Assembly (NCBI GenBank): GCA_003251535.1
Contig: QKFD01000071.1
Span: 1 to 38,898, forward strand
Direction of reading: 5' to 3'
DNA: 38,898 nucleotides
DNA from: Chromatiales bacterium
GTDB taxonomy: Bacteria > Pseudomonadota > Gammaproteobacteria > Thiohalomonadales > Thiohalomonadaceae
How positions within the stretch are numbered: position 1 is the first letter of the stretch; each line of letters begins with the position of its first letter. The notes beneath the pieces are model-generated. The model saw only the letters and a list, made by a program, of their open reading frames with translations. It ran no database searches and was not told the DNA's origin. Shown piece after piece: positions 17,892 to 32,678 of the stretch. The translations under genes and the position numbers were made by a program.

Positions 17892-18015
17892 CGTCTCCTC
17901 CCTCAATCCGGGCACCACTATGCCGCAGGCGGGCACAGCCATCCTGACCGATCTTGCGCACCCGTGGTTTGGGCGCGAGCTGTTACGCGAAGGTTGCGCC
18001 AAGAACCAACCCTTT

Positions 18016-18053
18016 CTAATCGGGACATCCATTCCTAATCGGGACATCCATTC
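18016..18053. repeat. Exact tandem duplication of a 19-bp unit
   Basis: CTAATCGGGACATCCATTC occurs twice in direct succession (18016-18034 and 18035-18053). The unit contains the reverse complement of the GGATGTCCCGAT/TGGGTGTCC motif that recurs at 448-880 and 18100-18587. Confidence 0.85.
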
Positions 18054-18173
18054 GAGTAGCTGAGCTGTTGGCGCCGTGTGGGTTGGCAGCAGGTGCCGAT
18101 GGATAGCAGGTTGGTCACCGAACGACTATCTGGAACGAACCGGACATGGTTGCCCGAACATCCACCGGACTAT

Positions 18174-18359
18174 CTGGACACCCACCGGAGGTAGGTTACC
18201 CGGGGACAGTTATCCGGACATCCACTGGATTGGGCTGAGGCGCACCGGATTGCGGACACCCACCAGGTTGGGTTGAAGAACCTCCCCTGGAGGATCTCGG
18301 GGAAACAGGGGGCGCTGGCCTATGGATAGGGTTTATCGGCGGTGCTGTGTGGACAGGGG
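18174..18359. repeat. Direct repeat, copy 1 (about 186 bp)
   Basis: This segment runs from CTGGACACCCACCGGAGG to TGTGTGGACAGGGG. It is repeated with roughly 90% or more identity at 18393-18587. Both copies contain several GGACACCCACC/GGACATCCACT motifs. Short open frames over the two copies give near-identical peptides only because the DNA is repeated, so they are not taken as genes. Confidence 0.85.
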
Positions 18360-18392
18360 CGGGACTATCTGGACACCCACCGGACTGATTAC

Positions 18393-18587
18393 CTGGACAC
18401 CCACCGGAGGTAGGTTACCCGTGGACGGTTATCCGGACATCCACTGGATTGGGTTGAGGCGCACCGGATTGCGCGGTTTGCGGACACCCACCAGGTTGGG
18501 TTGAAGAACCTCCCCTGGAGGACCTCGGGGAGACAGGGAGCGCTGGCCTATGGATAGGGTTTATCGGCGGTGTTGTGTGGACAGGGG
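18393..18587. repeat. Direct repeat, copy 2 (about 195 bp)
   Basis: The second copy of the 18174-18359 segment differs by a few substitutions and an extra 9-base GCGGTTTGC-type insertion near 18472-18480. Between the copies (18360-18392) are two further GGACACCCACCGG-type motifs, so the block probably grew by slippage or recombination between motif copies. Confidence 0.85.
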
Positions 18588-18642
18588 GAAACGGAGCGTG
18601 TGACCACGGTGGGGCCCCAGGGTGACGGCGTTTGCCCCCTTC

Positions 18643-19077
18643 TCAGCAGCCGGTGGATAAGTAGAGGGCCGCTAGTTTTCGCTTGAGCTGATCGGAGTTG
18701 CCCTGAAATGACGGGCCGGTCACGATGGCGTGGGCTGCGTTGCGATCTCCGGTATCCACGGCGCGTACTGCCTGGCCGGCCAGGCGGTGGAAGTCGGCAT
18801 GGAGCGCCTGGATCTCCTTGAGGGCAGGGTGGGTGCCGTAGTGCTGCTGGCCCTCACCGTGGATCCAGCGCCCCAAGGTGCATTTGCAGTCGGCGCTGAC
18901 GACCTTGGCATCGAGGGGGGCCCCTTTGCCGTTGATGTAGTCGGTAAGCCGATGTTTCCAGAGGACATGGGCCTGGATGATGGCGGGGATGTCCAGCACT
19001 GGGCGGGTGACGGGGGCCGGCACGGCGGTGACGGCGACAGGGGTCGGGTGGCGTGAGGTGCGGGAGAAGAGTTGCAT
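18643..19077 (-). CDS. Chemoreceptor zinc-binding (CZB) domain protein
   Basis: A 144-residue protein beginning MQLFSRTSRHPTPVAV, with a Pro/Val-rich N-terminus and a CZB domain from about residue 28. Likely Zn ligands are the His in IIQAHVLWKHRL, the Cys in SADCKCTLGRWIHG, and the two His in ALHADFHRLAG. CZB domains sense zinc or oxidants (hypochlorous acid) and usually sit in chemoreceptors or diguanylate cyclases. Here the domain stands alone without membrane helix or signalling module, so it may act in trans. A longer in-frame start at 19158 adds a poor N-terminus. Confidence 0.85.
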   Translation of the reverse strand: MQLFSRTSRHPTPVAVTAVPAPVTRPVLDIPAIIQAHVLWKHRLTDYINGKGAPLDAKVVSADCKCTLGRWIHGEGQQHYGTHPALKEIQALHADFHRLAGQAVRAVDTGDRNAAHAIVTGPSFQGNSDQLKRKLAALYLSTGC

Positions 19078-19613
19078 GGGGGGCCTCTGTGGATTCGGTG
19101 GGTTCGTTATGGGGCCCAGCTTAAAGCGCCACCAAAATGCCGAAATGATCAATGTCACAGGCCTGTTGTGGCATCCATCAGGCTACCGAGGTAAGCGGTG
19201 TGGCGGGGCCGGTTGATGGTGGATACTGGAGCATCCAGACATCCAGACATCCAGACACCCAGACACCCAGACACCCAGACACCCAGCTGATATGGGGGAG
19301 GGTATCCGTGGCGCGATTGGCATCACCTTCACCACTGTGCTCGGCCCCGGAAGATCTATGTTGGCTTCGCCTAAGTAGACCTCTGGCCTTGATGGAGATG
19401 GCCGTGTTTGCCTTCATCGAGTGGGTTCGTTTCTGGCACGCACGGTCTCAACGCTCTTTTATCGCCCGAGATGAGGGCGCTGGTTTGAGTGGCGCGGCTG
19501 TATGCGAAGATGACCACGAGGTTGATGCCGCGGTGCGCTCAAGCAGGCGCTGGAAGCAAGTGCCAGATAACCCGCGGCACTTCCACTGAAAATTGTCTAG
19601 TCAATGAGGGGGA
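19078..19613. other. Intergenic region with a tandem 8-bp repeat and orphaned RBS
   Basis: I see no supported gene between the CZB gene and the mobile segment. The stretch holds the 19233-19286 microsatellite. At 19605-19613 it holds GAGGGGGAG, which must once have been the ribosome binding site of the small gene now at 23551 (see the composite transposon). Confidence 0.5.
19233..19286. repeat. 8-bp tandem repeat (microsatellite), nearly 7 copies
   Basis: Three copies of ATCCAGAC (19233-19256) are followed by three copies of ACCCAGAC and a partial fourth. An 8-bp unit could change copy number by slippage, but no open frame of coding character crosses it. The wording resembles the GGACACCCA repeats 700 bases upstream. 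Confidence 0.9.
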
Positions 19614-19621
19614 GAAAAAAT
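19614..19621. repeat. Target-site duplication, left copy
   Basis: GAAAAAAT immediately precedes the left ISL3 end (GGGTCTATG...). The identical octamer follows the right ISL3 end at 23545-23552. Eight bases is the duplication length expected for ISL3-family insertion. Confidence 0.9.
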
Positions 19622-19716
19622 GGGTCTATGACGTTCTGTGTGGAAGGGGGTACCCTTAGAGCTTTATCTGGGGGGCCGAGGGCATGGAGTCGACGCAGTT
19701 GTTCACGCTGGCATTG
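19622..19716 (+). mobile_element. ISL3 left-end fragment
   Basis: These 95 bases match 22207-22301 at 93 positions, covering the left inverted repeat and the first 11 transposase codons (MESTQLFTLAL). The match stops exactly where the IS3 left end begins. ISL3 sequence does not resume after the IS3, so the rest of this copy was deleted. Confidence 0.9.
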
Positions 19717-19719
19717 AGG

Positions 19720-20947
19720 TGGTCTAATTGGAACGGACACCCGAATAAGCCCGAGAATAAGGGCGACAAGAGAGAGGTGTCTATGAGCGGAATAAGAAAG
19801 CGGTATACGGAAGAGTTCAAGCGAGAGGCGGTGAAGCTGGCGAGTGAGGGGGGACGCCGAGTTTCAGAGGTGGCAAGGAGCCTAGGGGTAGAGCGGAGCT
19901 TGCTAGACAAGTGGAAGCGCGGGTTTGAAGCGGAGGAGAAGGGGGCGGGACTGAGTGGTGCGGAGCAGGATGAACTGGAGCGCCTGCGGCGAGAAAACCG
20001 GCAGTTGAAGATGGAGAAGGAGATCCTAAAAAAAGGCGGCAGCCTTCTTCGCCAAGGGGTCGAGCTGAGATATCAGTTCATTGACGAGGAGAAGAAGGCG
20101 TACCGGATCTGCGCGCTGTGCCGAACACTGGAGGTGAGTCGCAGTGGATATTACGACTGGTGCCGACGTTCGGCGTGCCCGCAGGAGCGGCTGGAGTTGG
20201 AGATAGAGGTGAAGGCGATCCATGCGGAAACCCGAGCCACCTAGGGAAGCCGGCGTCTGTCCGTGGAGCTACGAGAACGGGGTTTCGATGTGGGCCGTCG
20301 TCAAGCGAGACGGCTCATGCGAGAGGCGGGATTGAAGGTGAAAAGGCGCAAGGCGTTTCGGCAGACTACCCAAAGTCGGCACCGCTACCCCGTTGCTGAA
20401 AACGTGTTGGACCGGCAGTTTGAAGTGGGCGTCCCCGATCGGGCGTGGGTGGCGGATATTACCTATATGTGGACGGACGAGGGCTGGATGTATCTAGCCG
20501 TTGTGTTGGACCTTTTCTCCCGGCGGGTGGTGGGATGGGCCTTGGGAGAGCGTCTGGTCACCCAGCTCGCCTTGGATGCGCTGACGATGGCCCTCTGGCG
20601 ACGTCAGCCGTCGCCGGGCCTGCTACACCATTCGGACCGCGGAGTTCAGTATGCCAGTAACGACTACCAGCACCTTTTGAAAGAACATGGGCTCATCGCC
20701 AGCATGAGCCGCAAAGGGAATTGCTGGGACAACGCAGTGGCTGAACGCTTCTTTGGCAGCCTGAAGAGCGAGTGTACGGAACGCCGCTGATATGCCACAC
20801 GGGCCGAACTGAAGGCTGAAGTGGTCGACTACATCGAAATGTTCTACAACTGTCGCCGTCGGCACTCTTCCCTGGGGCAGGTCAGTCCCAGCGAGTTTGA
20901 GAGGGCTCAACGTGCGGCTTAGTGAACTGTCCGTTTTTACTTGACCA
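19720..20947 (+). mobile_element. IS3-family insertion sequence, decayed
   Basis: Imperfect terminal inverted repeats TGGTCTAATTGGAACGGACA (left, 19720) and TGGTCAAGTAAAAACGGACA (reverse complement of the right end, 20947) bound a 1228-bp element of standard IS3 size. The body encodes a typical IS3 transposase interrupted by two stops. No 3-5 bp target duplication is visible, which agrees with a deletion having removed one original flank. Confidence 0.85.
19783..20922 (+). pseudogene. IS3-family transposase (fused OrfA/OrfB frame, two nonsense codons)
   Basis: One reading frame runs from an ATG with AGAGAGG upstream to TAG at 20920 (379 codons), but has TAG at codon 154 (20242) and TGA at codon 336 (20788). 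The first part is OrfA (SGIRKRYTEEFKREAVKLAS, HTH, then the coiled ELERLRRENRQLKMEKEIL). The second is OrfB with the DDE core: WVADITYMWT, HHSDRGVQYAS and NCWDNAVAERFFGSLKSE. At 20028-20034 is a run of seven A. With six, OrfA would end KKAAAFFAKGSS-stop as in relatives and OrfB would need a -1 frameshift, so the extra A has joined the frames. The two stops probably abolish activity. Confidence 0.88.
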
Positions 20948-21147
20948 CCACACTTACTCGTTTGTCGGTAATTTGCACACTGATCGGCAGGTTGATGGCG
21001 AAGCCAGCCATTTCAAGCCAAGCACCTTGAAGCAAAACGAAAGGAATGGTGGGGTTTCCAGCGCAGCGTGAGCTCGGACGTCCAACTGCGCTGCGCTCTG
21101 TCGGTCGCCGGTTACGCTTGTCGCTATGCACAGAAAGGGAGCAGGGA

Positions 21148-22017
21148 GTGACTTTGTCGAGCAGGCTTGGGTATGGCCCAAAGAAAGAAACAAGAATCGA
21201 TGTCCCGGACCATATTGCTCCGAGAGATATTTCAATCGTTATACCGGTAAGAAATAACCAAGCAGGGGTGGACCGGTTACTTCAGGCGCTGTCCGAATTC
21301 GGGGAAATCGACAAACCAAGAGAGGTTGTTGTTGTGGATAACCTATCCACACGCCCCATTCGGCTGAGAAGAGAATTTCCATTCCAAGTCATCGCAACAA
21401 CTTGCGATAGACGCGGGCCTGCGGCAGCTAGAAACGATGGCGCCAGAATTACAACAGGAAAATGGCTGTTATTCCTGGATAGTGATTGCATCCCAACGCG
21501 CACTACGGTGGCAGGTTATACCTCAAGTAATAACTGCCAAGTAGCCTATGCGGGATATGTGCAGGTGAACGGTACCGATCGGCTCTCGGTATACTATCGG
21601 AGCCAAGAGACGCTGCTGCCTCCAAAGACGGTAGATGGCGACGTTACTCGCCCCGACTACTTGGTGACTGCCAATTGCTTAGTTGCAAAAAATGCATTTG
21701 ACGCGATCGGTGGTTTTGATGAGAGTTTTACACAAGCAGGAGGGGAAGATATTGATTTGGCGTTTCGTCTTCTTCGTATAGGAGATATTGCGTACCAATG
21801 GAATAGCTGCGTGGAGCACTCGTTCGATGACGGTCTACGTGGATTCGTGGCCAGATTTGTCCGGTACGGAAGGGGGAACCGGCAGTTGGCCGAAAAGTAC
21901 CATCTACAACTTCACCCACGCCCTTTCGTTCCGGAACTGTTTTCGTTATCTAACGCCTTCCTCGCATGGGCTCAGTTCTTGGCAATGACGTGGGGCTATA
22001 GGAGCATAATCGGGTAA
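21148..22017 (+). CDS. Glycosyltransferase family 2 protein
   Basis: A 289-residue GT-A fold protein. It begins at a GTG with AAAGGGAGC upstream; an ATG at 21046 in the same frame is possible. Conserved points are ISIVIPVRNNQAGVDRLLQA (GT2 strand 1), VVVDNLSTRP, GPAAARNDGARITTGKWLLF, the DxD-like LDSDCIP, and GGFDESFTQAGGEDIDLAFR near the acceptor site. It probably transfers a sugar to a surface polysaccharide or protein. It is clearly less GC-rich than the chromosome and lies between insertion sequences, so it looks like cargo acquired by transfer. Confidence 0.85.
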   Translation: MTLSSRLGYGPKKETRIDVPDHIAPRDISIVIPVRNNQAGVDRLLQALSEFGEIDKPREVVVVDNLSTRPIRLRREFPFQVIATTCDRRGPAAARNDGARITTGKWLLFLDSDCIPTRTTVAGYTSSNNCQVAYAGYVQVNGTDRLSVYYRSQETLLPPKTVDGDVTRPDYLVTANCLVAKNAFDAIGGFDESFTQAGGEDIDLAFRLLRIGDIAYQWNSCVEHSFDDGLRGFVARFVRYGRGNRQLAEKYHLQLHPRPFVPELFSLSNAFLAWAQFLAMTWGYRSIIG

Positions 22018-22206
22018 GGGTAAGTCTCTAGCCCGCCATCCCCACACCACCTAACATGCGGGTTCGCACTAGGCGGTTCATGGGAATGAAGCACACGGAG
22101 AGTTCAGACATACCCATGGGCTTTCATCCACAGGAAGCGTATATCGAAGCCTCTGGCTCTTCAGCCACTCATTCGTCATTCCGGACGAGCCCGGTGTGGG
22201 AAAACC
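22018..22206. other. Unassigned sequence between glycosyltransferase and ISL3
   Basis: About 190 bases that match neither IS and hold no convincing gene. CACCTAACATGCGGGTTCGC followed by ACTAGGCGGTTCATG looks like a piece of another mobile element. I cannot place it. Confidence 0.3.
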
Positions 22207-23544
22207 GGGTCTATGACGTTCTGTGTGGAAGGGGGTACCCTTCGAGCTTTATTTGGGGGGCCGAGGGCATGGAGTCGACGCAGTTGTTCACGCTGGCATT
22301 GGGTCTTCAGGCTCCGTGGAGCGTGGCGGATATTCGCTTTGAGCAAGAGGCGGGCGAGATCCACTTTGACGTGGTCTGTGGCGAGCCGCGGCTCCCGTGC
22401 CCGGTCTGTGGCCGTGCGGCGCAACCGGTTCACGATCGAAAGGAACGCACCTGGCAGCATCTGCACTTCTTCCAGTACCGGGCTTACCTTCATGCCAAGG
22501 TGCCGCGGGTGGCGTGCGGCGCGTGCGGCAAGACTAGCCAGGTCACTGTCCCTTGGGCGCGCCCGGGCAGCGGCTTCAGCCTCCTGTTTGAGGCGCTTGT
22601 GGTGGCGCTGGCGAGGCATCTGCCGGTACGACAGGTTGGCAAGCTCTTGGGTGTGAATGAAGCCCGTCTGTGGCGCCCACTGAAGGCGATCGTCGATGCG
22701 GCGCGTGAGCAGGAGTCGTTCGCCGACGCGAGTCACATCGGCGTGGATGAAAAACATGTCGGACGCCTGGGGTTCATTTCGGTGTTTCACGACGCCAAGG
22801 ACCCGCGTGTGCTGTTCACGGCGGAGGGACGCAAAGCCGAGGTGTTCGAGCGCTTCGAGGAAGACCTGAAGGCCCATGGCGGTGCCGCCGAGCACATTGA
22901 AGCCATCTCCATGGACCTTTCGAAGACCTACCAAGCAGGGGCGCGAAAGACGTTCCCGCAGGCGCAGATGTGCTTCGATCCATTCCATCTGGTCAAACTG
23001 GGTAGCGCGGCGCTGGAGCAGGTTCGTCGTGCGGAAGTACGTTACGAGCCCGACTTGAAGGGACTCCGCTGGGCCACTCTCAAGCGGCCGGAAAAGTGGA
23101 CGTTCGAGCAGTTCCAGGACATGGAATGGCTGAGGAAGTCCGGGTTGGAAACAGCGAGAGCTTGGCGCCTGAAAGAGCGCCTGCGTGACATCGTCAGATT
23201 GGCGAGGGCAGAGCACCCTGCGGAGCCATTGTTCAAAAAGTGGATCTCTTGGGCGCGCAGATGCCGCCTGGGGCCGTTCAAGAAAGTGGCGGCGACCTTT
23301 CGTGACCACCTTCCCGGCATCGTCGCCACGTTTGTTCTGAACCGCTCGAATGCCGCTGCGGAGTCGATCAATGCGGCTATCCAGGTGGCGGTCGTCCGCG
23401 CTCGCGGGTTCCGAACCCTGAGCCACCTGCAAACCATAATCTACCTGATCGCAGGCAAGCTCACGCACCTTCCGGCCCATCCTTATATCCGTCCCGTGGG
23501 CACACCGGGATAGCCGCTCCTTCCACACAGAACGTCATAGACCC
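22207..23544 (+). mobile_element. Complete ISL3-family insertion sequence
   Basis: A 1338-bp element with 26-bp perfect terminal inverted repeats. The left end starts GGGTCTATGACGTTCTGTGT (22207) and the right end is its reverse complement finishing at 23544. It carries one intact transposase gene. The 8 bases before the left end (GGAAAACC) differ from those after the right end (GAAAAAAT), so this copy alone has no target duplication. Confidence 0.92.
22269..23513 (+). CDS. ISL3-family transposase
   Basis: A 414-residue transposase beginning MESTQLFTLALGLQAPWSVA. The N-terminal zinc-finger region has CPVCGRAA and VACGACGKTS. A helix-turn-helix lies around PVRQVGKLLGVNEARLWRPL. The DDE catalytic residues are in HIGVDEKHVG, ISMDLSKTYQ and SNAAAESINAAIQ. 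The frame is uninterrupted and the element has both ends, so it could be active. The ATG at 22269 is chosen over the in-frame upstream ATG at 22056 because that one lies outside the element. Confidence 0.93.
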   Translation: MESTQLFTLALGLQAPWSVADIRFEQEAGEIHFDVVCGEPRLPCPVCGRAAQPVHDRKERTWQHLHFFQYRAYLHAKVPRVACGACGKTSQVTVPWARPGSGFSLLFEALVVALARHLPVRQVGKLLGVNEARLWRPLKAIVDAAREQESFADASHIGVDEKHVGRLGFISVFHDAKDPRVLFTAEGRKAEVFERFEEDLKAHGGAAEHIEAISMDLSKTYQAGARKTFPQAQMCFDPFHLVKLGSAALEQVRRAEVRYEPDLKGLRWATLKRPEKWTFEQFQDMEWLRKSGLETARAWRLKERLRDIVRLARAEHPAEPLFKKWISWARRCRLGPFKKVAATFRDHLPGIVATFVLNRSNAAAESINAAIQVAVVRARGFRTLSHLQTIIYLIAGKLTHLPAHPYIRPVGTPG

Positions 23545-23552
23545 GAAAAAAT
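23545..23552. repeat. Target-site duplication, right copy
   Basis: GAAAAAAT directly follows the ISL3 right inverted repeat and is identical to 19614-19621. Its last two bases are the A and T of the ATG of the small membrane-protein gene at 23551. Confidence 0.9.
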
Positions 23553-23751
23553 GCAAGTTGACTTCTATACCAAGGCCGTACTGACCGTCATTGCGTGCTG
23601 CCTGCTCTATTTCGTTGTGCGGGACCTTTCCGTCGTTCCGGACGCGCACGCCGTATCTCAGGACATTGTGGATGTAAACATCGTTGAGATACGTGGGCTG
23701 GCACTCGACTCTGCCGCGGCATCTCCCATTCGTGTCAAGGTGGTCGATTGA
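23551..23751 (+). CDS. Small membrane protein cut off from its RBS by the transposon
   Basis: A 66-residue protein beginning MQVDFYTKAVLTVIACCLLY, with one membrane segment at about residues 8-24 and a polar C-terminal part containing IVDVNIVEIRGLALDSAAA. The frame is intact, but immediately upstream is the ISL3 right end and no Shine-Dalgarno sequence. Joining the sequence left of the composite element to this gene restores GAGGGGGAG then GAAAAAATG, a good RBS with correct spacing. The gene was therefore probably functional before insertion and is now poorly translated. Function unknown. Confidence 0.7.
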   Translation: MQVDFYTKAVLTVIACCLLYFVVRDLSVVPDAHAVSQDIVDVNIVEIRGLALDSAAASPIRVKVVD

Positions 23752-23844
23752 ACGTAATGCCACCGTGGTCCCGGGTCTGACCATCGGCTAGAGCACCGAA
23801 GAGAGTTGTCGTCATTCCGGGAGACACGGGATTTCTGATGGCTG

Positions 23845-24033
23845 ATGGGGCGTGAATGCAAAAGATTGGCTCGGCAATTCGCTTGTATCTATTTGTCTAG
23901 TGGATGTCTGGCCGGCGTCGTTTCTATTGGCAGGGGCATATACAACGCCCATGGGGTAATCCCTGTCGCCGTGACGGCGGCGCCGCTCATGGGCGGATGT
24001 CTGTGCGGCGGGTATGGAGTGTTCACGCCATGA
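23845..24033 (+). CDS. Possible small two-helix membrane protein
   Basis: A 62-residue frame beginning MGRECKRLARQFACIYLSSG. Two hydrophobic Gly-rich segments (YLSSGCLAGVVSIG and VIPVAVTAAPLMGGCLCGG) look like a membrane hairpin with a basic N-terminus. No good ribosome binding site is seen, so reality is uncertain. If real, it could be the partner of the small membrane-protein gene 93 bases upstream. Confidence 0.35.
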   Translation: MGRECKRLARQFACIYLSSGCLAGVVSIGRGIYNAHGVIPVAVTAAPLMGGCLCGGYGVFTP

Positions 24034-24093
24034 CCGCCGATCGGAGTTGAAGCAAGTGAGGCGCTGCCCCTCTCCTGGGAGGATGGACCGGCA

Positions 24094-24117
24094 ACCTTGC
24101 TAATTTAGTAGCAAGGT
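24094..24117. promoter_or_regulatory. Inverted repeat upstream of the MPP-TIR gene
   Basis: ACCTTGCTA (24094-24102) and TAGCAAGGT (24109-24117) form a perfect 9-bp inverted repeat with a 6-base AT-rich centre (ATTTAG). It could be an operator for the downstream operon or a small terminator. No T tract follows. Confidence 0.4.
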
Positions 24118-24380
24118 CATGCCCGCGAGCTGCACCGCAAGGTCCTAGAACCGGGTGATCGCGCTCGCAGATTGCACTGCTGTGATGTGTGGGGGTGATC
24201 AATTCCAGTGGAGATCCCTCTTGAACCAGGCAGAGGTAAAGGGAACGGCGGGTCGTGCAAGGCGTGGATAGCGCTGTCATGCGGCAAGGCCATAAAAGAC
24301 CTCTAGAAAACATCCCCTCCGTTGCATAGTATGGCCGTGGGCGTGCGCCGGCCGTCTGTAGGCGACATAACAACAAAGGG

Positions 24381-26903
24381 ATGCTGACAGGGAGCCTCTG
24401 CGTGGCCGATTTTACGCTGCTACACCTTTCGGATGTTCATTTCGGGATAGATGACCCTGGGGCCAAGCTGCCCCTTGCTACCCAAGCCCTAACCCAAGCG
24501 GTGCAGCGGGCCGGCCTGAGGCCGGATCTATGCGTCTTCTCCGGTGATTTGGCGCAAGCGGGGACCCCTGCGCAGTTCGCGCAGGGGCGTGCCTGGCTGG
24601 AGGCGCTACTCAAACCGTTTGGCTGCCCCCTGGCGATTGTGCCGGGGAACCACGACCTTGATCGCCAGGCCGCGGAGCGGCGCATCCTGCGGGCGGCCAG
24701 TCCGAGTGCCGAAGCGTATGGGGACTGGCGTGACAAGTTGGCGCCGTCCAAGCGCTTCCAGGCCTTCATCGATACCTTTTCTGCCGCCCAATGTGGTCAG
24801 CAGCTCCGTTGCCTCTTTGACTGGGAGCAGGGGCTGTTTGTCGCCTCCCATAGGGGTGTATACAACGGCCTCGCACTCCATCTCATCGGTCTGAACACCG
24901 CACTCACCTCAGTGGACAACAAGGACCAAGGCCAGTTAGTGGCCGATGTCGAGTCGCTCAACCGTTTGTTGGCCCAGGTGCAGAGTGACGAGGAGTTGGT
25001 GCTGGTGGTCGGGCACCACCCCATCGATTGGCTAGTGGAGTGGAATCGACATGAGATCGAGAGGGCATTGGGGCGTAACCACAACGGCGCCCACGCCCTG
25101 CTCTGTGGCCATATGCACGCAGCGGATACGGCAACTTTCGCCAACGGACGCGGCGCTTCGTTGACCACCCTGGCCGCTGGGGCGGTCTATCAGTCGGACC
25201 AGTACTCCCGGCACTTTGCGTTCTACGAATTCTCGCTCACCCAGCGGGAGATCCAACCATGGGTCTATGTCCACAATGATGTGGCTGGTGAGTGGGAGCT
25301 AAATGCGGCGTTGTCAAAGCCCTTTGTCTCGCGGCTTCCACTGCCGAGGGCCGGGGCGGGTCGAGAGGATTCGCCAGCGGTGGCCCGTCATGTCAAAGGG
25401 GGGCCATCAAAGCGAGAGACTAAATTCAGTGGGCCAGCGGGCCAGAGTGCGCTGTCCGGGGGGCTGGAATCTCAAGGAGGCGTGGCCGTCGTCGAACAGG
25501 CCAATGGGCAGGAGGTACAAACGGCACCCAGGGGCGAAGGGCTGTCAGGAGCGGATGAGGGACGTTTGAGTATCTTCATCTCTTATGCCCACGCAGACGA
25601 GGCGCACTTGGCGACGCTGGAAACACGCCTGAAAGCAATTCAACGCCGCTTACCGTGTGTCTATTTCTGGCATGACCGGAACTTGCTGGCGGGGAGTATC
25701 GTCCAGGACGAGATCATGGCGCGCCTGGCGGAGGCGGAGATTGTCATACTGCTCATTAGCCCGGACTTCATGGCCTCCGACTATTGCTTTACGCTGGAGA
25801 TGAACGCAGCTTTGCAGCGGTTTGAGAGCGGTTATGGCATCGTAATCCCGGTCATTGTGCGTGAAACGCCCTATTGGCATACGGAGGCGATAGGTCAGCT
25901 GCTTGCGCTGCCGACCGATGGGTGGTGGCTTTCTCACAACCATTGGGGGGGGGATTCCGATGCCTTCTGGGGCGATGTGCAACGGGGGTTGAGCAGGTGC
26001 ATTGAGGAGAGGCTCAAGGCGCGTGATTTTCCCCAAGTGGCAACCTCTGTAGGGCAGGGCAGCAGCGCGCTCCCCGCAGCGCCTTTCAACCAAGTTTTAA
26101 AAGGGAAGATTGCGGACGTACTCTCTGCCGAGGCCGCCCGCCCGCTACTCGATGACCTCCGGCAGGGACTCTCTGCTTTACCTTCGGCATCGCCCCTCGA
26201 TATCGCGGATCACCTGGTCAGTGGGGCCGATCTCTCGGCATCGTTGCGCAGTGTCTACCGGGCAGTCACCACGACTTTACCGCGCTTGCAAGGCCGCAAT
26301 GACGGCCATCTCGATGGCTGCCGGCAGGCCGCCAGTAGCCTCTTTGGTTGGTTGGTACTCCGGGCGGTGGATGACCAGTGGCTGCTCCAGAACGCTCACC
26401 TGCTCCACACCAGTATACGGGTCCGCATCACCAGTGAGGCCGTTATCGAGGTGATCCTCTCACGGCTGGATGAGCGGCAGGGCAGTTGGCGCGAGACCAA
26501 GGGCCCGCACGCTATCGGCAGCGCCCGTCTGGCAATAGACGATGGTATTGAATGTGGCTATTCAGATTCGGTCCGCCTCCAGCAGGTGGCCTGTGCTATC
26601 TGGAAGGCTGTTTTCAGAGACAGCACTATGTCTGAGTTGTCTGGCGATGATTTTGAGACGCTTGATGCCCGCCTCTGTGTGTTACGGGAGTGGGAGAAGG
26701 AGCGTCGTTACCTGACCATCAAGCAGGGCATCGCGGGTACTACACACTCGGAGCTATACCGGGCATTGAGCCACAAACTCCCCAACCTCCAGTTGGTCTA
26801 TATCGACCTTCAAGATGGCTATGGCGATATGTTGATTACCAGCGCCACGCTCCTCGGCCAGCAGATTTACCTCTTTGTAGACTACATGGAGAAATTCAAA
26901 TGA
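24381..26903 (+). CDS. Metallophosphoesterase-TIR fusion protein (predicted conflict effector)
   Basis: An 840-residue cytoplasmic protein. Residues 10-300 are a calcineurin-like metallophosphoesterase with all five metal motifs: DVH (18-20), GD (55-56), GNHD (89-92), GHH (211-213) and GHMH (243-246). A Gly/Ser-rich linker (about 320-395) leads to a TIR domain at about 396-500: RLSIFISYAHADE, WHDRNLLAG, then SDYCFTLEMNAAL, where Glu473 is the likely NADase-type glutamate. The remaining ~340 residues are an unrecognised mostly helical domain. TIR domains of this kind cleave NAD or make nucleotide signals in bacterial immunity. The GTG at 24402 (VADFTLLHLSDVHFG) is an alternative start. It overlaps the next gene by ATGA. 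Confidence 0.88.
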   Translation: MLTGSLCVADFTLLHLSDVHFGIDDPGAKLPLATQALTQAVQRAGLRPDLCVFSGDLAQAGTPAQFAQGRAWLEALLKPFGCPLAIVPGNHDLDRQAAERRILRAASPSAEAYGDWRDKLAPSKRFQAFIDTFSAAQCGQQLRCLFDWEQGLFVASHRGVYNGLALHLIGLNTALTSVDNKDQGQLVADVESLNRLLAQVQSDEELVLVVGHHPIDWLVEWNRHEIERALGRNHNGAHALLCGHMHAADTATFANGRGASLTTLAAGAVYQSDQYSRHFAFYEFSLTQREIQPWVYVHNDVAGEWELNAALSKPFVSRLPLPRAGAGREDSPAVARHVKGGPSKRETKFSGPAGQSALSGGLESQGGVAVVEQANGQEVQTAPRGEGLSGADEGRLSIFISYAHADEAHLATLETRLKAIQRRLPCVYFWHDRNLLAGSIVQDEIMARLAEAEIVILLISPDFMASDYCFTLEMNAALQRFESGYGIVIPVIVRETPYWHTEAIGQLLALPTDGWWLSHNHWGGDSDAFWGDVQRGLSRCIEERLKARDFPQVATSVGQGSSALPAAPFNQVLKGKIADVLSAEAARPLLDDLRQGLSALPSASPLDIADHLVSGADLSASLRSVYRAVTTTLPRLQGRNDGHLDGCRQAASSLFGWLVLRAVDDQWLLQNAHLLHTSIRVRITSEAVIEVILSRLDERQGSWRETKGPHAIGSARLAIDDGIECGYSDSVRLQQVACAIWKAVFRDSTMSELSGDDFETLDARLCVLREWEKERRYLTIKQGIAGTTHSELYRALSHKLPNLQLVYIDLQDGYGDMLITSATLLGQQIYLFVDYMEKFK

Positions 26904-27916
26904 ATCCCCCTCCTTTTCCTATCGGCGAGCCGCTGACTCTGCCTCCGTTGGGCTCCTGGCCCTGCTCCATTCACCTCTTCGACGACACCAGCGCCGCCGC
27001 CATCGAGGCGGCGCTGGCCGCGCAACGGCCGCTACTGGTGCGGGGCGAGCCCGGTACGGGTAAGAGCCAGTTGGCCCGTGCCGCGGCGCACCATCTGGGG
27101 GGCGTCTTTGTCTCCGAGGTGGTCCACGCCCGCAGCGAGAGCCAGGACCTACAGTGGCATTTCGACGCCGTGGCGCGTCTGGGGGAGGCGCAGTCGCTGG
27201 GCGCCGCGCGGTATGAGGCGGAGGAGATCGCCCGGCGCCTGGATCCGCGCCGCTTCCTCTCCCCGGGGAGCCTCTGGTGGGCGTTCGACTGGGCCGGGGC
27301 GCAGCGGCAGTATGAGCAGTGTCTCCACAACCATGCCCGGCCGGCGGGGTCGGCGGATCAGGCGGCCGAGCGGGGGACGGTGCTGCTTATCGATGAGATC
27401 GATAAGGCCGACGCCGATCTGCCCAACGGCCTGCTGGAGACCCTGGGTAACGGCAGTTTCTCCGTGCCCTACCTGGATGAGCCGGTGCGGCTCCCGGCCG
27501 GGGTGCCGCCGCCCCTGGTGGTGATCACCACCAACGAGGAGCGCGAACTGCCCGCCGCCTTCCTGCGCCGCTGCTTCGTGCTGCACCTCTATCTGCCGGA
27601 TGACGACCCGGCCCAGCGAGGGCGGGATAGCGCTGTACAGCAGCAGGCGGTGGCCGACTGGCTGGTGGCGCGTGGCCGCTACCACTTTGCGGAGCGCTGT
27701 CCTGAATCGGTGATGGCGGAGGCGGCGCGCCAGCTCACCCAGGAGCGGAGCGAGGCGCGCCTGCGTGGCAGCGCCGCACCGGGGCAGGCCGAATATCTGG
27801 ATATATTGCGGGCGCTGGCCACCATCGCCCCCGGGGATGGAGAGAAACAGGAGGCATTGCTGACGCGGATCGGCCGCTTTGCCATGCAGAAATCCACTGG
27901 ATTAGCCGGCGGATGA
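26900..27916 (+). CDS. MoxR-like AAA+ ATPase
   Basis: A 338-residue AAA+ ATPase beginning MNPPPFPIGEPLTLPPLGSW. Walker A is GEPGTGKS (49-56), Walker B VLLIDEIDKAD (161-171), sensor 1 VVITTNEERELP (208-219), with an arginine-finger type FLRRC at 221-225. MoxR ATPases act as chaperones with vWA-domain partners, and the next gene encodes such a vWA-like protein. Four-base overlaps with both neighbours indicate one translationally coupled operon. A longer frame upstream only re-reads the TIR gene. Confidence 0.92.
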   Translation: MNPPPFPIGEPLTLPPLGSWPCSIHLFDDTSAAAIEAALAAQRPLLVRGEPGTGKSQLARAAAHHLGGVFVSEVVHARSESQDLQWHFDAVARLGEAQSLGAARYEAEEIARRLDPRRFLSPGSLWWAFDWAGAQRQYEQCLHNHARPAGSADQAAERGTVLLIDEIDKADADLPNGLLETLGNGSFSVPYLDEPVRLPAGVPPPLVVITTNEERELPAAFLRRCFVLHLYLPDDDPAQRGRDSAVQQQAVADWLVARGRYHFAERCPESVMAEAARQLTQERSEARLRGSAAPGQAEYLDILRALATIAPGDGEKQEALLTRIGRFAMQKSTGLAGG

Positions 27917-30783
27917 GCAGGCCTAAGCCTATCGAGGGAGCGCGTGGGGCGGTGGGTCGGGCCGATCTGATCTACTGTCTTGCCGATGTGCCAGAGGCGC
28001 GGGAGCAGCAGATCGCGGCGCTGCTGGGTTATCAACTCGCTGTTGAGTCACTGGATGGGTTAGCGAAGTCATCGGATACCCAGGAGCGTAAATCGGAGCG
28101 TGCGGCTGCACCAAGCCCCACTCCCACCGAGCCCCAGCTGGACGACCCTGCCCCCCCATCGAATACCCAAGAGAGCAAGCCGGAGGTAGCGGCTGCACCC
28201 AATCCCCCTCCCATCGAGCCCCGAGCGGATGACCCTGAATCCCCATCGGCAGTGGTAGCCGGTGCCCCCTTCCTCCGCCTGGTGGGTTACCGCCCGGTGC
28301 CGGCGGAGGAGCGGGTGACTGCCGTCCCCGCCGAGATCGCCGCCGCCGCGCCGCTCCCCGAGCATGAGCCCATTGACTACGGCGCCCCCACCCCCGCCAA
28401 GCCGCCGTTGGCCCCCTGGTCGCGGCTCTGGCCGTTCCTGCGCACCGTGCTCGGCGAGCGGCGCGCCGGTCGCCCACTGGACCTGGCGCGCATCGTGCGC
28501 TGTCTGGCGGAGGGGCGGACGCTGCGCCGCCTGCCCCGGCGCGACCGGCCCGCTTGGGCGAGGCGGGCGCAGCTGTTGGTGGATGCCTCCCCCCACCTGT
28601 TCCCGTTGCAGGAGGATTTCGATGCCCTGTGTCGGCGGTTGATCCGTCTGCGGGGGGCGGCCGGTTTGACCCTCTGGGTGTTGGCGGATGGGCCGGGCGG
28701 CGCGTGCCAGCCCTGGGGTGACCACAAGACAGGTTATGCGCCCCACTACCGCCCCCCTGAGCCCGGTACGCCGGTGCTGGTGCTGGGGGACCTGGGGCAG
28801 CTGAGCGGTCGCACCGGCGGGTGGTTGCGGCTCGGGCGGCGACTGCGGCGGGCCGGTTGCCGGCCGCGGGCACTGGCCCCCTGTCCTCCGCGGCTCTGGC
28901 AGGAGGCGCTGACGGCCTGTTACCAGACCGTGGCCTGGGATCGGGGGCAGCGGCTCCCCCTATCTGCGCGGCGCCCTCCTACCCCTACCGTTGATCAAGG
29001 TGCCGGGGAGGCGGGGGGCGAGCGCCTGTTGCGGCTGCTGGCGCTCGCCATCCGGGTGGAGCCGGCGCTGCTGCGCGCCATCCGCTATCTCCTGCCGCAG
29101 GGGCAGGCGGATGTCGCTACCGAGGCGGCGGTGTGGGGCCACCGACAGGTCAGCGCCAGTCTGCTCGGGATGGCGCTACGGCCGGAGGTGATCGAAGCGT
29201 ACCGCGAGGCGGCGCGGCGTCTGGAGTCCCCCGCCCTGTTGGCCCGTGTCGCCGCCCTGATCACTGCCTACCATGCACCCCTGCCCCGCATCGTCACCGC
29301 GGAGGAGGCCATGGTGCAGGCGCAACTGCTCGGGCGCGCACCGCCGGCCGAGGCGCTGGCGCTGCTGCGCAGTATGGCCGTCACCGTGTTGACCCGGCCG
29401 CCCGGCTTCCCCCATCAGGCCGGCATCGAGGGGTGGGTCCGGCGCATGGCCACCCGCCAGCACCAGGCGATGTGGCGCTGGCCGGCGGTCCAGCCCCTTG
29501 CCGGTGCCGTCGCCGCCCTGTTAGAGCGCGACAGTGAGGTGACGGAGGTCGCCTATCCGCCTGGCTTCGACCGTAATCGGGTGTTGTGGGCGGTCGAACA
29601 GGGGGCCGCCCCGGTGGAGTATGAGCTGCGCCTGCGGCAGCTGCTGCCGGCCACGGGCAGCGTGGAGCTACAGTGGGCTGCGCCAGAGGGTGCTGACGAC
29701 CGTCGTCAGCACCAGGCTGAGCGCCTGACCCAGCGGCTCGCCTCGCTGCTGCGCATGGCAAGCAGACGGCTATCGTGGGCCCAGCGGGACGACGCAGATG
29801 GTGTCCTGGCGCCAGGTGTCACAGGCGGCGTCCAGGCTAATAATCTAACCCAGCGGCTCGCTTCGCTCTCCATGACGGGGACACGGTTGCCGTGGACCCA
29901 TCAAGATCGGGGTGGCGGGCTGCAGCAGGGCCTCACGGGCGAGATCCGGGCCGGGGCGCGGTTTGCGCTGCCGGCGAGCGGCAGCCTGTGGCTGCACGGC
30001 ACCCATGAGTCGCTGGAGCTGGCTCTGTTTCACCGCCCGGCCTGGGCGGAACGCATCGGTGTCGATCGCCACGGCCTCTGGGCCGAGTTTGCCCATGAGG
30101 GGGTGACCCAGCGCCTGCGCTGGATAGGGCCGGGGCGGTTCATGATGGGTTCGCCGCCGGGCGAAGAGGAGCGCAATAAAGACGAACAGCTGCACGAGGT
30201 CAGCCTCACCCGCGGTTACTGGTTGGCAGATACCCCGTGCATCCAGGCGTTGTGGGCGGCGGCGATGGGGGAGAACCCGAGCCGGTTCAAAGGTGCCGAG
30301 CGGCCGGTGGAGCAGGTGAGTTGGGAGGATGCGGCGCGGTTCATCGAGCGGTTGAACGCAGCGCGGCCGGGGTTGGAGCTGCGTCTGCCGACCGAGGCGG
30401 AGTGGGAGTACGCCTGTCGGGCGGGGAGGCAGACGCAGTACTGGTTCGGCGACACTATTTCCGCGAAGCAGGTGAACTTCCGTAACAGGCAGCAGGGGAC
30501 GGTCGAGGTCAAGGCCTTACCCTGTAACGGCTGGGGCCTCTATCAGATGCACGGCAATGTGTGGGAGTGGTGCCAGGACTGGTATGGTGACTACCCGCCC
30601 GGTCCGGTGACGGACCCGCGGGGGGCGGAGGCGGGCGGCAGGCGCGTTCTGCGCGGCGGCTCGTGGTTCGACGGCGCCTGGGGGTGCCGCTCCGCGTGCC
30701 GCTTCCGCGGGGAGCCTGGCTCCCGCAACGACGATATCGGTTTCCGGCTTGCCCGAGGTCGAATAGATCGGGTTGGCGAGTAG
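27913..30783 (+). CDS. vWA-like / FGE-fold fusion protein, DGR target 1
   Basis: A 956-residue protein. After a short N-terminal segment there is a Pro-rich linker with two 29-residue repeats (about 53-110). Residues about 165-340 resemble the degenerate vWA-like domain of SAV_2336-type proteins (RAQLLVDASPHLFPLQEDFD, LWVLADGPGGACQPWG, VLVLGDLGQLSGR). A helical region follows, then a duplicated LTQRLASL segment (about 600-675). The C-terminus (about 734-950) is a formylglycine-generating-enzyme/sulfatase-modifying-factor fold: RFMMGSPPGEEERNKDEQ, LPTEAEWEYACRAG, HGNVWEWCQDWYGDYPPG, RVLRGGSW. Residues 907-948 are encoded by VR1. The domain is expected to act as a diversified ligand-binding C-type-lectin-like surface rather than an enzyme. 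Confidence 0.9.
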   Translation: MSRPKPIEGARGAVGRADLIYCLADVPEAREQQIAALLGYQLAVESLDGLAKSSDTQERKSERAAAPSPTPTEPQLDDPAPPSNTQESKPEVAAAPNPPPIEPRADDPESPSAVVAGAPFLRLVGYRPVPAEERVTAVPAEIAAAAPLPEHEPIDYGAPTPAKPPLAPWSRLWPFLRTVLGERRAGRPLDLARIVRCLAEGRTLRRLPRRDRPAWARRAQLLVDASPHLFPLQEDFDALCRRLIRLRGAAGLTLWVLADGPGGACQPWGDHKTGYAPHYRPPEPGTPVLVLGDLGQLSGRTGGWLRLGRRLRRAGCRPRALAPCPPRLWQEALTACYQTVAWDRGQRLPLSARRPPTPTVDQGAGEAGGERLLRLLALAIRVEPALLRAIRYLLPQGQADVATEAAVWGHRQVSASLLGMALRPEVIEAYREAARRLESPALLARVAALITAYHAPLPRIVTAEEAMVQAQLLGRAPPAEALALLRSMAVTVLTRPPGFPHQAGIEGWVRRMATRQHQAMWRWPAVQPLAGAVAALLERDSEVTEVAYPPGFDRNRVLWAVEQGAAPVEYELRLRQLLPATGSVELQWAAPEGADDRRQHQAERLTQRLASLLRMASRRLSWAQRDDADGVLAPGVTGGVQANNLTQRLASLSMTGTRLPWTHQDRGGGLQQGLTGEIRAGARFALPASGSLWLHGTHESLELALFHRPAWAERIGVDRHGLWAEFAHEGVTQRLRWIGPGRFMMGSPPGEEERNKDEQLHEVSLTRGYWLADTPCIQALWAAAMGENPSRFKGAERPVEQVSWEDAARFIERLNAARPGLELRLPTEAEWEYACRAGRQTQYWFGDTISAKQVNFRNRQQGTVEVKALPCNGWGLYQMHGNVWEWCQDWYGDYPPGPVTDPRGAEAGGRRVLRGGSWFDGAWGCRSACRFRGEPGSRNDDIGFRLARGRIDRVGE
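28071..28244. repeat. 87-bp imperfect tandem repeat in the linker
   Basis: Two copies (28071-28157 and 28158-28244) encode Pro/Ala-rich 29-residue units beginning SSDTQERKSERAAAP and SNTQESKPEVAAAP. They probably form a flexible spacer between the N-terminal segment and the vWA-like domain. Confidence 0.75.
29712..29940. repeat. 120-bp-period duplication before the FGE domain
   Basis: The stretch encoding LTQRLASLLRMASRRLSWAQ (near 29725) recurs 120 bases later as LTQRLASLSMTGTRLPWTHQ (near 29845). The CCAGGCT...ACCCAGCGGCTCGC core is conserved at DNA level. It extends the region between the helical part and the variable domain. Confidence 0.65.
30634..30757 (+). repeat. DGR variable repeat VR1
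   Basis: These 124 bases align without gaps to the template repeat at 32415-32538. There are 12 mismatches and each lies at an adenine of the template (A to T, G or C). Changed codons convert template residues I, N, R, R, Y, N, H, R, N, N to F, D, W, G, C, F, R, G, S, D. Template adenines in GAG and AACGAC are unchanged. The 3' end GGTTTCCGGCTTGCCCGAG is identical in all copies and then GTCGA follows (GCCCGA-type end in the template), marking the IMH boundary. Confidence 0.95.
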
Positions 30784-30785
30784 GC

Positions 30786-30807
30786 CGGTCCGGTCGCCGT
30801 CGGACAG
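30786..30807. other. GC-rich hairpin downstream of VR1
   Basis: GTCCG (30788-30792) pairs with CGGAC (30801-30805) around an 8-base loop, 30 bases after VR1. A wider inverted repeat GGCCGGTCC (30783-30791) / GGACCGGCC (30841-30849) surrounds it. The segment lies after the stop codon but is conserved after VR2. DGRs such as the Bordetella phage example use a similar hairpin to aid retrohoming. Confidence 0.6.
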
Positions 30808-30904
30808 ACGCAGCGGAGCGGAGTCGGTCAGGCGGGGAGGGGACCGGCCGGGCGCGGGTGTGCTGGGGAGAGAGGCCCCGACAACGGTGGAGTAAGGCGA
30901 CGCC

Positions 30905-31408
30905 ATGAAGTTCCGTTTTTTCACTATCCCGGCCCTGACGCCGGAGGCGGGTGAGGGGGAGTTGAATGGCTTCTGTGCCTCACATCGGGTCTACCCCGTG
31001 GAGCGCCAGTTTGCTGCTGCGGGGGAGCATAGCTTCTGGACGGTCTGTGTCGGTTACCGCGACGCCGCCATGACCGCCATTGGGCCAGCCACAACACCAC
31101 GCAACAAGGTCGATTACAAGGAGGTGTTGAACGAGGCGGATTTTGCCCTTTTCGCCCAACTCAGAACCTTGCGTAAGACGTTGGCCGAGCAAGAGGGGGT
31201 ACCCGCATACGCTCTGTTTACCAACGAACAGTTGGCAGAAATGGTGCGCCACCGGGTCACCTCCGTAGCGCAGTTGCGGGAGATCGCTGGGGTGGGTGCG
31301 GCACGGGTGGAAAAGTACGGGACCTCGTTTCTGCAACTGATCAGGGAACCAGAGTCGTGTGCCAGTGCAGCGGCCGGAGAGAGGGGGAGTGAAGCGGATC
31401 CGCATTGA
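30905..31408 (+). CDS. HRDC-domain DGR accessory protein
   Basis: A 167-residue protein beginning MKFRFFTIPALTPEAGEGEL. Residues about 80-148 form an HRDC domain (LFAQLRTLRKTLAEQEGVPA, LFTNEQLAEM, VAQLREIAGVGAARVEKYG), a helical nucleic-acid-binding module known from RecQ and RNase D. DGRs commonly encode a small basic accessory protein (Avd), and some have an HRDC-domain protein in that position; this one lies directly upstream of the reverse transcriptase. It probably binds template RNA or cDNA together with the RT. GGAGTAAGG is upstream of the ATG, and the 3' end overlaps the RT gene by 20 bases. Confidence 0.88.
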   Translation: MKFRFFTIPALTPEAGEGELNGFCASHRVYPVERQFAAAGEHSFWTVCVGYRDAAMTAIGPATTPRNKVDYKEVLNEADFALFAQLRTLRKTLAEQEGVPAYALFTNEQLAEMVRHRVTSVAQLREIAGVGAARVEKYGTSFLQLIREPESCASAAAGERGSEADPH

Positions 31409-32396
31409 GTTGGAGCAGGTGGCGGCCTACCCGAATCTAGTGGCTGCGTTTCAGCAGGTGGCCCGAGGCAAGGGGGGACGGCGGGAAGTCGAGGCCTTTC
31501 GCCGCAATATCGATGTGCGTCTGGCGCGACTTGGCCAGGCGATCATGGATGGCTCTATGCCGCTGGGGCACTACCGTCGCTTTATCATCCATGATCCAAA
31601 GCGGCGCACTATCCATGCCGCCTGTTTCGATGACAGGCTGTTCCACCATGCGTTGATGAACCTTGCCGGTCCGGTACTAGACAGGGCGCTTACCGATGCC
31701 ACCTTCGCCTGCCGTATCGGTATGGGCCAGCACGCGGCGGTGCGGCGGGTGCAGCACTACCTGCGCCGCTTCCCCTGGTACATACAGGTGGATATCGACG
31801 CCTACTTCCCATCCATCGAGCATACTCGACTGCTGGACCTGCTCGAACGACGTTTCAAAGGTGCGGCGTTTCTGGCCACATTGCGGCGGGTGGTGGAGGG
31901 TTTTGAGGTTTCACCCGGTCGTGGTTTGCCCATCGGCACGCTGACATCACAGCATTTTGCCAATTACTACCTTGATGGTCTCGACCGCTTCATCCAGGAG
32001 ACGCTGCCGAGCCGGGGTCTGGTGCGCTATATGGACGATAGTGTCTGGTGGTGTGATGACCACGCAACTGCGCGCTGGACCCTCGCCGCCGTCAACGAAT
32101 ATCTGGTGCGGGAGCGGGGCCTGAACATCAAACCAAACGCTCGTATCCAACGCAGCGCGCAGGGGATAGCCTTTTGTGGTTACCGCGTCACACCGGGCTG
32201 CATACGACTCAGCCGGCGTAAGCAGCGACGTTATCGCGGGCGCCGGGCGGCGTGGGAGCAGGCCTGGTCTACGGGGCATATCGGTGCGCTGGAGTTACAG
32301 CGTGGTTACGCTGCCGTGCATGGCATTACCGCCCAGGCGGACAGCCGTGCCTGGCGGCAGGAGCATCTACGGCGCCACCCGGCGCCGGAGGTGTAG
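31389..32396 (+). CDS. Diversity-generating retroelement reverse transcriptase
   Basis: A 335-residue reverse transcriptase with only the fingers-palm and short thumb and no maturase or endonuclease part. Motifs are RRFIIHDPKRRTIHAACFDD (fingers), QVDIDAYFPSIEHTR with catalytic Asp135, the DGR-type LPIGTLTSQHFANYYLDGLD at 181-200 (group II introns have QGGPLSP here), and YMDD at 214-217. IAFCGYRV follows as the next RT block. It makes error-prone cDNA from the template RNA, mis-incorporating at adenines. The GTG start at 31389 has GAGAGAGGGGGA upstream; an upstream in-frame start at 31359 is less likely. The template repeat begins 18 bases after the stop. Confidence 0.95.
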   Translation: MKRIRIELEQVAAYPNLVAAFQQVARGKGGRREVEAFRRNIDVRLARLGQAIMDGSMPLGHYRRFIIHDPKRRTIHAACFDDRLFHHALMNLAGPVLDRALTDATFACRIGMGQHAAVRRVQHYLRRFPWYIQVDIDAYFPSIEHTRLLDLLERRFKGAAFLATLRRVVEGFEVSPGRGLPIGTLTSQHFANYYLDGLDRFIQETLPSRGLVRYMDDSVWWCDDHATARWTLAAVNEYLVRERGLNIKPNARIQRSAQGIAFCGYRVTPGCIRLSRRKQRRYRGRRAAWEQAWSTGHIGALELQRGYAAVHGITAQADSRAWRQEHLRRHPAPEV

Positions 32397-32414
32397 GGTG
32401 AGGGGCACAGAGGT

Positions 32415-32538
32415 GGCGGCAGGCGCGTTCTGCGCGGCGGCTCGTGGATCAACGGCGCCAGGAGGTGCCGCTCCGCGTACCGCAACCACAGGGAGCCTGG
32501 CAACCGCAACGACAATATCGGTTTCCGGCTTGCCCGAG
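32415..32538 (+). repeat. DGR template repeat (TR)
   Basis: 124 bases starting GGCGGCAGGCGCGTTCTGCG and ending CTTGCCCGAG, 18 bases downstream of the RT gene and non-coding as placed. It contains 21 adenines, concentrated in 11 codons when read in the target frame (ATC, AAC, AGG, AGG, TAC, AAC, CAC, AGG, AAC, AAT, ATC). These are the A-rich AAY-type codons that give wide amino-acid choice without stop codons. Both VRs differ from it almost only at these adenines. Confidence 0.95.
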
Positions 32539-32583
32539 CCCGAGGGACCCTGGACGGGGGCCTTCGACCAGCGCCTCATCCTC

Positions 32584-32607
32584 GCCCCGCCGCCGTGCCG
32601 TCGGGGC
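32584..32607. other. Hairpin downstream of the TR
   Basis: GCCCCG (32584-32589) and CGGGGC (32602-32607) can pair around a 12-base loop, 46 bases after the TR. It may be part of the 3' structure of the template RNA used for cDNA priming, or a weak terminator. Confidence 0.35.
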
Positions 32608-32678
32608 AAAAAGCCAATGGCCGCCGGTATGTCAGTAGCGGGCAGATGCCTGCGAACGCCTGCCGGTGGGCCGATTTA

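Follow-up and report, generated by a model that had tools for sequence, protein, structure and literature searches.

Features of the locus

The window analysed here is the whole of one contig (C40; GenBank QKFD01000071.1), 38,898 nucleotides long, from a Chromatiales draft genome (GCA_003251535.1) of 4.63 Mb in 130 contigs. Its central part contains two stretches of one ISL3-family insertion sequence, which enclose an IS3-family element and a cargo with a glycosyltransferase open reading frame (ORF) and the antisense remnant of a group II intron. The octamer GAAAAAAT is found at both outer borders, and a small ORF begins at the right-hand one (Table 1).

Table 1. Coordinates of the features in the window
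Feature	Position	Strand	Remarks
Shine-Dalgarno-like GAGGGGGAG, left of the insertion	19606-19614	+	Final G shared with the octamer as its first base
8-bp target GAAAAAAT, left copy	19614-19621	+	Octamer search of the window
ISL3 left end, 95 bp	19622-19716	+	With first 11 codons; 93/95 identical to 22207-22301
IS3-family element	19720-20947	+	Ends TGGTC...GACCA; PF01527, PF00665
Cargo left of the glycosyltransferase ORF, 98 bases	20948-21045	.	No feature assigned
Glycosyltransferase family 2 ORF (PF00535)	21046-22017	+	Homology from residue 57; stop codon inside the intron remnant
Group II intron, 3' part	22004-22184	-	Maturase tail and last RNA domains; DNA similarity
Complete ISL3-family insertion sequence, 1338 bp	22207-23544	+	Perfect 26-bp inverted repeats
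ISL3 transposase, 414 aa	22269-23513	+	Intact frame; PF01610, NF033550
8-bp target GAAAAAAT, right copy	23545-23552	+	Ends with the AT of the ATG start codon
Small ORF, 66 aa	23551-23751	+	Separated from its Shine-Dalgarno by the insertion
Probable retroelement, HRDC protein	30905-31408
Probable retroelement, reverse transcriptase, RVT_1	31359-32396
Template repeat	32412-32543
Variable repeats	30631-30762; 33366-33497

The transposase of the complete element belongs to the ISL3 family, with 286.9 bits against the NF033550 cut-off of 180 and an E-value of 8e-59 for PF01610. Both ISL3 copies lie in the same orientation and, over the 95 comparable bases, are 98% alike; the homology of the left copy ends at 19716. 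The alignment of the two left ends that the initial annotation had proposed bore out their relationship. The IS3 element encodes an OrfA/OrfB-type transposase and has TG...CA ends, which resemble those of two related elements (L097 and L014).

The ISL3 element and its relatives

From named genomes, 70 loci with relatives of the transposase were collected, and 30 distinct loci among them were examined for target duplications. In 18 of these 30, the ends begin with GG and are immediately flanked by an 8-bp duplication. This count includes L019 and L045, which have one octamer in common and may represent one event. The other 12 have no visible 8-bp duplication; among them are three loci (L016, L018, and L021) whose ends were not properly located. 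A first end-finder, run on 29 loci, required the first two bases to be equal and at least 15 of 20 to match; it found eight duplications and missed the Comamonas copies. A second script with anchored ends, run on 21 loci, found 12, of which ten came from the 13 copies of Comamonas testosteroni NFYY023, one from the six of KatS3mg125, none from the single Tepidimonas copy, and one from the single Vulcaniibacterium copy. The duplicated octamers include runs of A and T (CAAAAAAA, TGAAAAAT, TGAAAAAA, and CATTTTTG). Based on these relatives, 8 bp is the expected footprint of the ISL3 element in the window, and an A-rich octamer is unremarkable. The mean A+T content over 17 distinct duplications is only 57%, so an octamer with all but one base A or T is not strongly predicted.

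Outside the locus, the best 40 of 42 candidates in the own assembly comprise two remnants and no complete copy. Both remnants consist of the right end only (L003 548-618 on contig C51, 93%; L004 214-285 on contig C9, 89%). Among the matches listed for 56 related genomes, ISL3 DNA was found in three, and in the two besides the own genome it extends over 36-42 bases only. ISL3 DNA matched ten plasmid records, in no case over more than 18% of its length, and viral contigs gave two transposase relatives at 46-47%.

In KatS3mg125 (Xanthomonadales; L023-L028), where only one of the six ISL3 copies has an 8-bp duplication, an extra ISL3 right end adjoins or lies near the copy at L026 and L028, which suggests tandem or recombined copies. 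Genome G005 has seven ISL3-like matches of 36 bases (L086 and L088-L093; the best 7 of 87), and six of these lie at most 100 bases from a contig start or end. This suggests that a multicopy ISL3 relative broke that assembly.

An 8-bp duplication around the whole unit

A scan of both strands of the window finds GAAAAAAT at two places, where 0.15 occurrences are expected, and none of 100 shuffled sequences contained two matches. For two given octamers of the window, the chance of identity is about 5e-5. The two copies directly abut the outer ISL3 ends on the left and on the right, and these ends form an inverted repeat in which all 26 of 26 positions match (19622-19647 and 23519-23544). The octamers beside the complete copy at 22207-23544 differ, with GGAAAACC on the left and GAAAAAAT on the right. 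A single target duplication is thus found around the whole unit and none around the inner copy, as the initial annotation had described, correctly to the base. Moreover, two ends of one insertion sequence bound other DNA, which is the arrangement of a composite transposon, with the left copy reduced to 95 bp.

GGAAAACC was also considered as a decayed GAAAAAAT. The two differ at three of eight positions, and 849 of the 38,891 octamers of the window lie within three mismatches of GGAAAACC; the likeness is therefore no evidence of decay.

Composite transposition had been called proven in the initial annotation. The unit does lie between copies of one 8-bp target; however, the word is too strong, because homologous recombination could leave identical outer octamers. 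For this, ISL3 would first have inserted at GAAAAAAT, and a circle with the cargo and one ISL3 copy would then have entered by recombination with the resident element, producing two direct copies. This accounts equally well for the outer octamers and for the mismatch at the inner flank, and it agrees with the direct orientation and 98% likeness of the copies over their 95 comparable bases. On the other hand, it needs two events and a circle, and the assembly outside the locus offers no complete ISL3 source, only the two right-end remnants among the best 40 of 42 candidates. We regard this origin as unlikely. Composite transposition, in which the ISL3-bounded segment enters a single octamer, remains the preferred reading.

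The joined site and the start of the small gene

When the two flanks are joined through one octamer, the site reads ...GAGGGGGAGAAAAAATGCAAGTTGAC..., and the Shine-Dalgarno sequence stands five bases before the ATG of the 66-aa ORF. Pairing with the 16S tail was calculated as -12.1 kcal/mol for the joined site versus -1.5 for the filled site; a value of -12.1 was attained by 4.1% of 5000 random 20-mers from the window.

Distant homologues of the small gene without an interruption were found in G160 (L105), on a plasmid of Acidisarcina polymorpha (L106), in G682 (L109), and, weakly, in G710 (L110). Their distance is considerable, with identities of 34% for L105 and 45% for L106 and E-values from 1e-5 to 0.01. 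All four homologues with a readable start have a Shine-Dalgarno sequence beside it (L105 -11.5, L106 -8.7, L109 -8.3, and L110 -8.4). L106 reads GGAGAAAAAATG, in which GAAAAAAT stands once and unbroken, one codon ahead of the Met aligned with the start of the 66-aa ORF, and the octamer is absent at that place in L105, L109, and L110.

These homologues came from searches of differing breadth. With the 66-aa protein, only the own genome was matched among the 56 related genomes, the others all from outside its genus, and two genomes (the own and G160) among 369 genomes of the class. Among plasmids one record was matched, that of Acidisarcina, at an E-value of 0.01. A three-row alignment searched against 398 genomes of the phylum gave four matches at E<=0.01 (the own genome, G682, G710, and G645). 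G645 was left out of the comparison of starts; its match falls within a 573-aa frame and is confined to profile positions 24-62. A degenerate pattern of the joined site had no match in a collection of genome contigs that may omit the own genome or very near ones. The case named in the initial annotation as counting against an insertion, an uninterrupted relative in which both octamers already exist, was not found among the 56 related genomes of other genera.

Since the joined flanks restore a Shine-Dalgarno sequence, as in the homologues, the target of the 3.9-kb insertion most likely contained GAAAAAAT only once. The predicted gene start lends functional support to a precise 8-bp insertion, and the distant homologues lend comparative support. 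It also bears on whether the octamers arose by chance or the locus was misassembled. The genome is a draft of 130 contigs, which leaves room for a misjoin. Against this, the chance of two identical octamers is about 5e-5, the joined site restores a gene start, and a further ISL3 copy that could have caused a misjoin was seen at no contig end. Either explanation is very improbable, and insertion into a single octamer is the reading followed below.

The cargo

The glycosyltransferase shares 46-47% identity with ORFs of G161 and G273, and among the matches listed at E<=1e-20 these two and the own genome are the only three of 369 genomes of the class in which it was found. By eye, the homologues in G161 and G273 adjoin ORFs that resemble further glycosyltransferases. 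They also extend about 6-9 residues further at the C-terminus, judged in the same way, so little coding sequence is missing from the ORF in the window. The initial annotation had named a glycosyltransferase as the passenger of the transposon. The ORF is indeed present; it is probably not fully intact, as its 3' end runs into the intron remnant. Plasmid matches were found in 65 records, all below 60% identity, and there was no match in viral contigs. No second copy of the cargo was found in the own genome, nor any second composite or cargo copy in the class genomes, the own genome, or the viral contigs.

The intron remnant lies antisense to the ORF. In the Klebsiella plasmid integrons group II introns stand next to arr-2, and the DNA past their ltrA frame is 77-82% alike to window 22000-22081 over 78-82 bases; unlike those introns, only a 3' remnant is found here, and it stands beside a glycosyltransferase ORF. 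The remnant is also 74% alike over 180 bases to a Methylocalor plasmid (L095), where the sequence is annotated as 'protein of unknown function'. Rfam covariance models gave no match on the remnant at the gathering threshold or at E<=1; the assignment therefore rests on DNA similarity to annotated introns. We take the remnant to be of class C. The complete ISL3 starts at 22207, 22 bases beyond the aligned intron stretch, and so its insertion site was most likely the intron or DNA next to it. Its two neighbours, the intron on the left and the small gene on the right, are unrelated.

The cargo outside the IS3 element has a GC content of 49-56% (49-51% for the left cargo and the glycosyltransferase ORF, 56% for the intron remnant), and the two arms of the window have 64-68%. 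Near the transposon the GC content is lower, at 61% (18000-19613) and 57% (23553-24380), so the contrast in composition is not sharp. A foreign origin of the cargo would fit these values.

The IS3 element and the order of events

The IS3 transposase frame has in-frame stops at 20242 and 20788, and the copy therefore looks inactive. Upstream of these, the ISL3 start with its first 11 codons is in frame with the N-terminal part of the IS3 transposase, which gives a fused ORF up to the first stop (19684-20241).

Three bases (AGG) separate the end of the ISL3 homology from the TGGTC end of the IS3 element. That the left ISL3 had been cut to 95 bp by the IS3 element was a further claim of the initial annotation; the size is correct, and with AGG between the two elements the IS3 element can be named only as the presumed agent. 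IS3 elements usually duplicate 3-4 bp of their target. Here no target duplication was found at the IS3 copy, whose flanks are AGG and CCA, and this is compatible with deletion or recombination after insertion. Three related IS3 elements with both ends read by eye served as controls: L099 has a 3-bp repeat (CTC), and L102 and L097 have none. Because two of the controls also have no repeat, the missing duplication is weak evidence for deletion.

The initial annotation had placed composite transposition first and an IS3-linked deletion second. This order does not follow from the sequence, since the deleted form could have moved itself. DDE insertion sequences require only their ends in cis, and thus a form with a 95-bp left end could have been a substrate for the transposase. 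The composite would then have moved as it now stands (95-bp end, IS3, cargo, and complete ISL3), with the IS3-linked loss at an earlier time, a variant that is not exclusive of composite transposition. In its favour, neither outer repeat is damaged and the ISL3 transposase frame is unbroken; moreover, the IS3 transposase frame has two in-frame stops and the two octamers do not differ, in keeping with an insertion that is more recent than the decay of IS3. However, one octamer pair is too short for dating, and the reverse order predicts the same sequence. We put the variant slightly short of an even chance. A decayed IS3 within an exactly duplicated target leans slightly toward it and dates nothing, and the transposition and the IS3-linked loss could have followed each other in either direction.

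Taken together, the segment 19622-23544 is probably a composite-type transposon, bounded by ISL3 ends, that moved as one unit into a single GAAAAAAT (probability about 0.7). Three features are seen directly: the outer inverted repeats are perfect, the ISL3 transposase frame of the right copy is intact, and 8-bp target copies flank the unit. From these we infer the movement itself and the donor site. The cargo would have come from elsewhere, where the right ISL3 would have entered GGAAAACC, either within a group II intron or next to it; this intron would have lain against the 3' end of a glycosyltransferase gene. Either earlier or later than the move, an IS3 element would have connected the cargo to the left ISL3, and sequence would have been lost at the junction. 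For the move itself, the transposase would have brought together the outer right end and the outer left end, of which only 95 bp now remain. The whole segment would thereby have been placed in a single GAAAAAAT that separates the Shine-Dalgarno sequence from the start codon of the small gene, with duplication of the octamer.

Other features of the window

Repeated DNA with a tandem 8-bp unit (CATCCAGA / CACCCAGA) lies to the left of the transposon, at 18007-18587 and 19224-19287. It includes two 114-nt copies that are 228 apart and two 87-nt copies that are 219 apart.

To the right, 27913-33545 probably holds a diversity-generating retroelement, as judged by its pattern, which we take to be that of such elements. 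Besides the reverse transcriptase and the HRDC protein, two proteins with FGE-sulfatase domains were found. Of the differences between the two variable repeats and the template, 12 of 16 and 12 of 15 fall at template A. Directly upstream of the first target gene of the retroelement, 24381-27916 encodes a pair: an 840-aa protein that combines a metallophosphoesterase domain with a TIR domain (ThsB-like TIR, PADLOC 9e-35), followed by an AAA ATPase. This is a possible defence or conflict system. Of the two, the retroelement probably merits closer attention than the transposon.

Known ISL3 composites and the meaning of the locus

Composite transposons of the ISL3 family are already known. In Corynebacterium glutamicum, Tn14751 is described as a native composite of an ISL3-type element, and it contains IS31831, which is treated as related to ISL3-family sequences (PMC1590026). 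Tn14751 is similar to the present composite in its ISL3-type bounding element and A/T-rich targets, and it differs in carrying 17.4 kb of chromosomal DNA in another host phylum (PMC1590026). Unlike Tn14751, the composite described here has a 95-bp left end and an IS3 element. In Brevibacterium aurantiacum, a probable iron-uptake composite is bounded by ISAar39 and ISAar42, both of the ISL3 family, so that two such elements surround horizontally moved genes as they do here. The two elements differ from each other, however (65% transposase identity), and target duplication is not mentioned in the sections available (PMC6579920). ISPpu12a is an ISL3 element with passenger genes (PMC4133298). The elements of Comamonas testosteroni NFYY023 and of the Gammaproteobacteria MAG WB5_2B_046, treated as single insertion sequences, share the transposase family, the ends starting with GG, and the 8-bp duplications, at transposase identities of 46% and 54%, respectively.

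To this group the present transposon adds a decayed left copy. It is one more ISL3 composite of a known kind, and the wider picture is unchanged. As a clean case, it allows a target duplication, nested mobile elements, and a gene start to be read together to order insertions. Tentatively, and with some doubt, the complete ISL3 and the 95-bp solo end may still form a mobile unit, one that would have moved a foreign glycosyltransferase ORF and parted a small gene from its ribosome-binding site.
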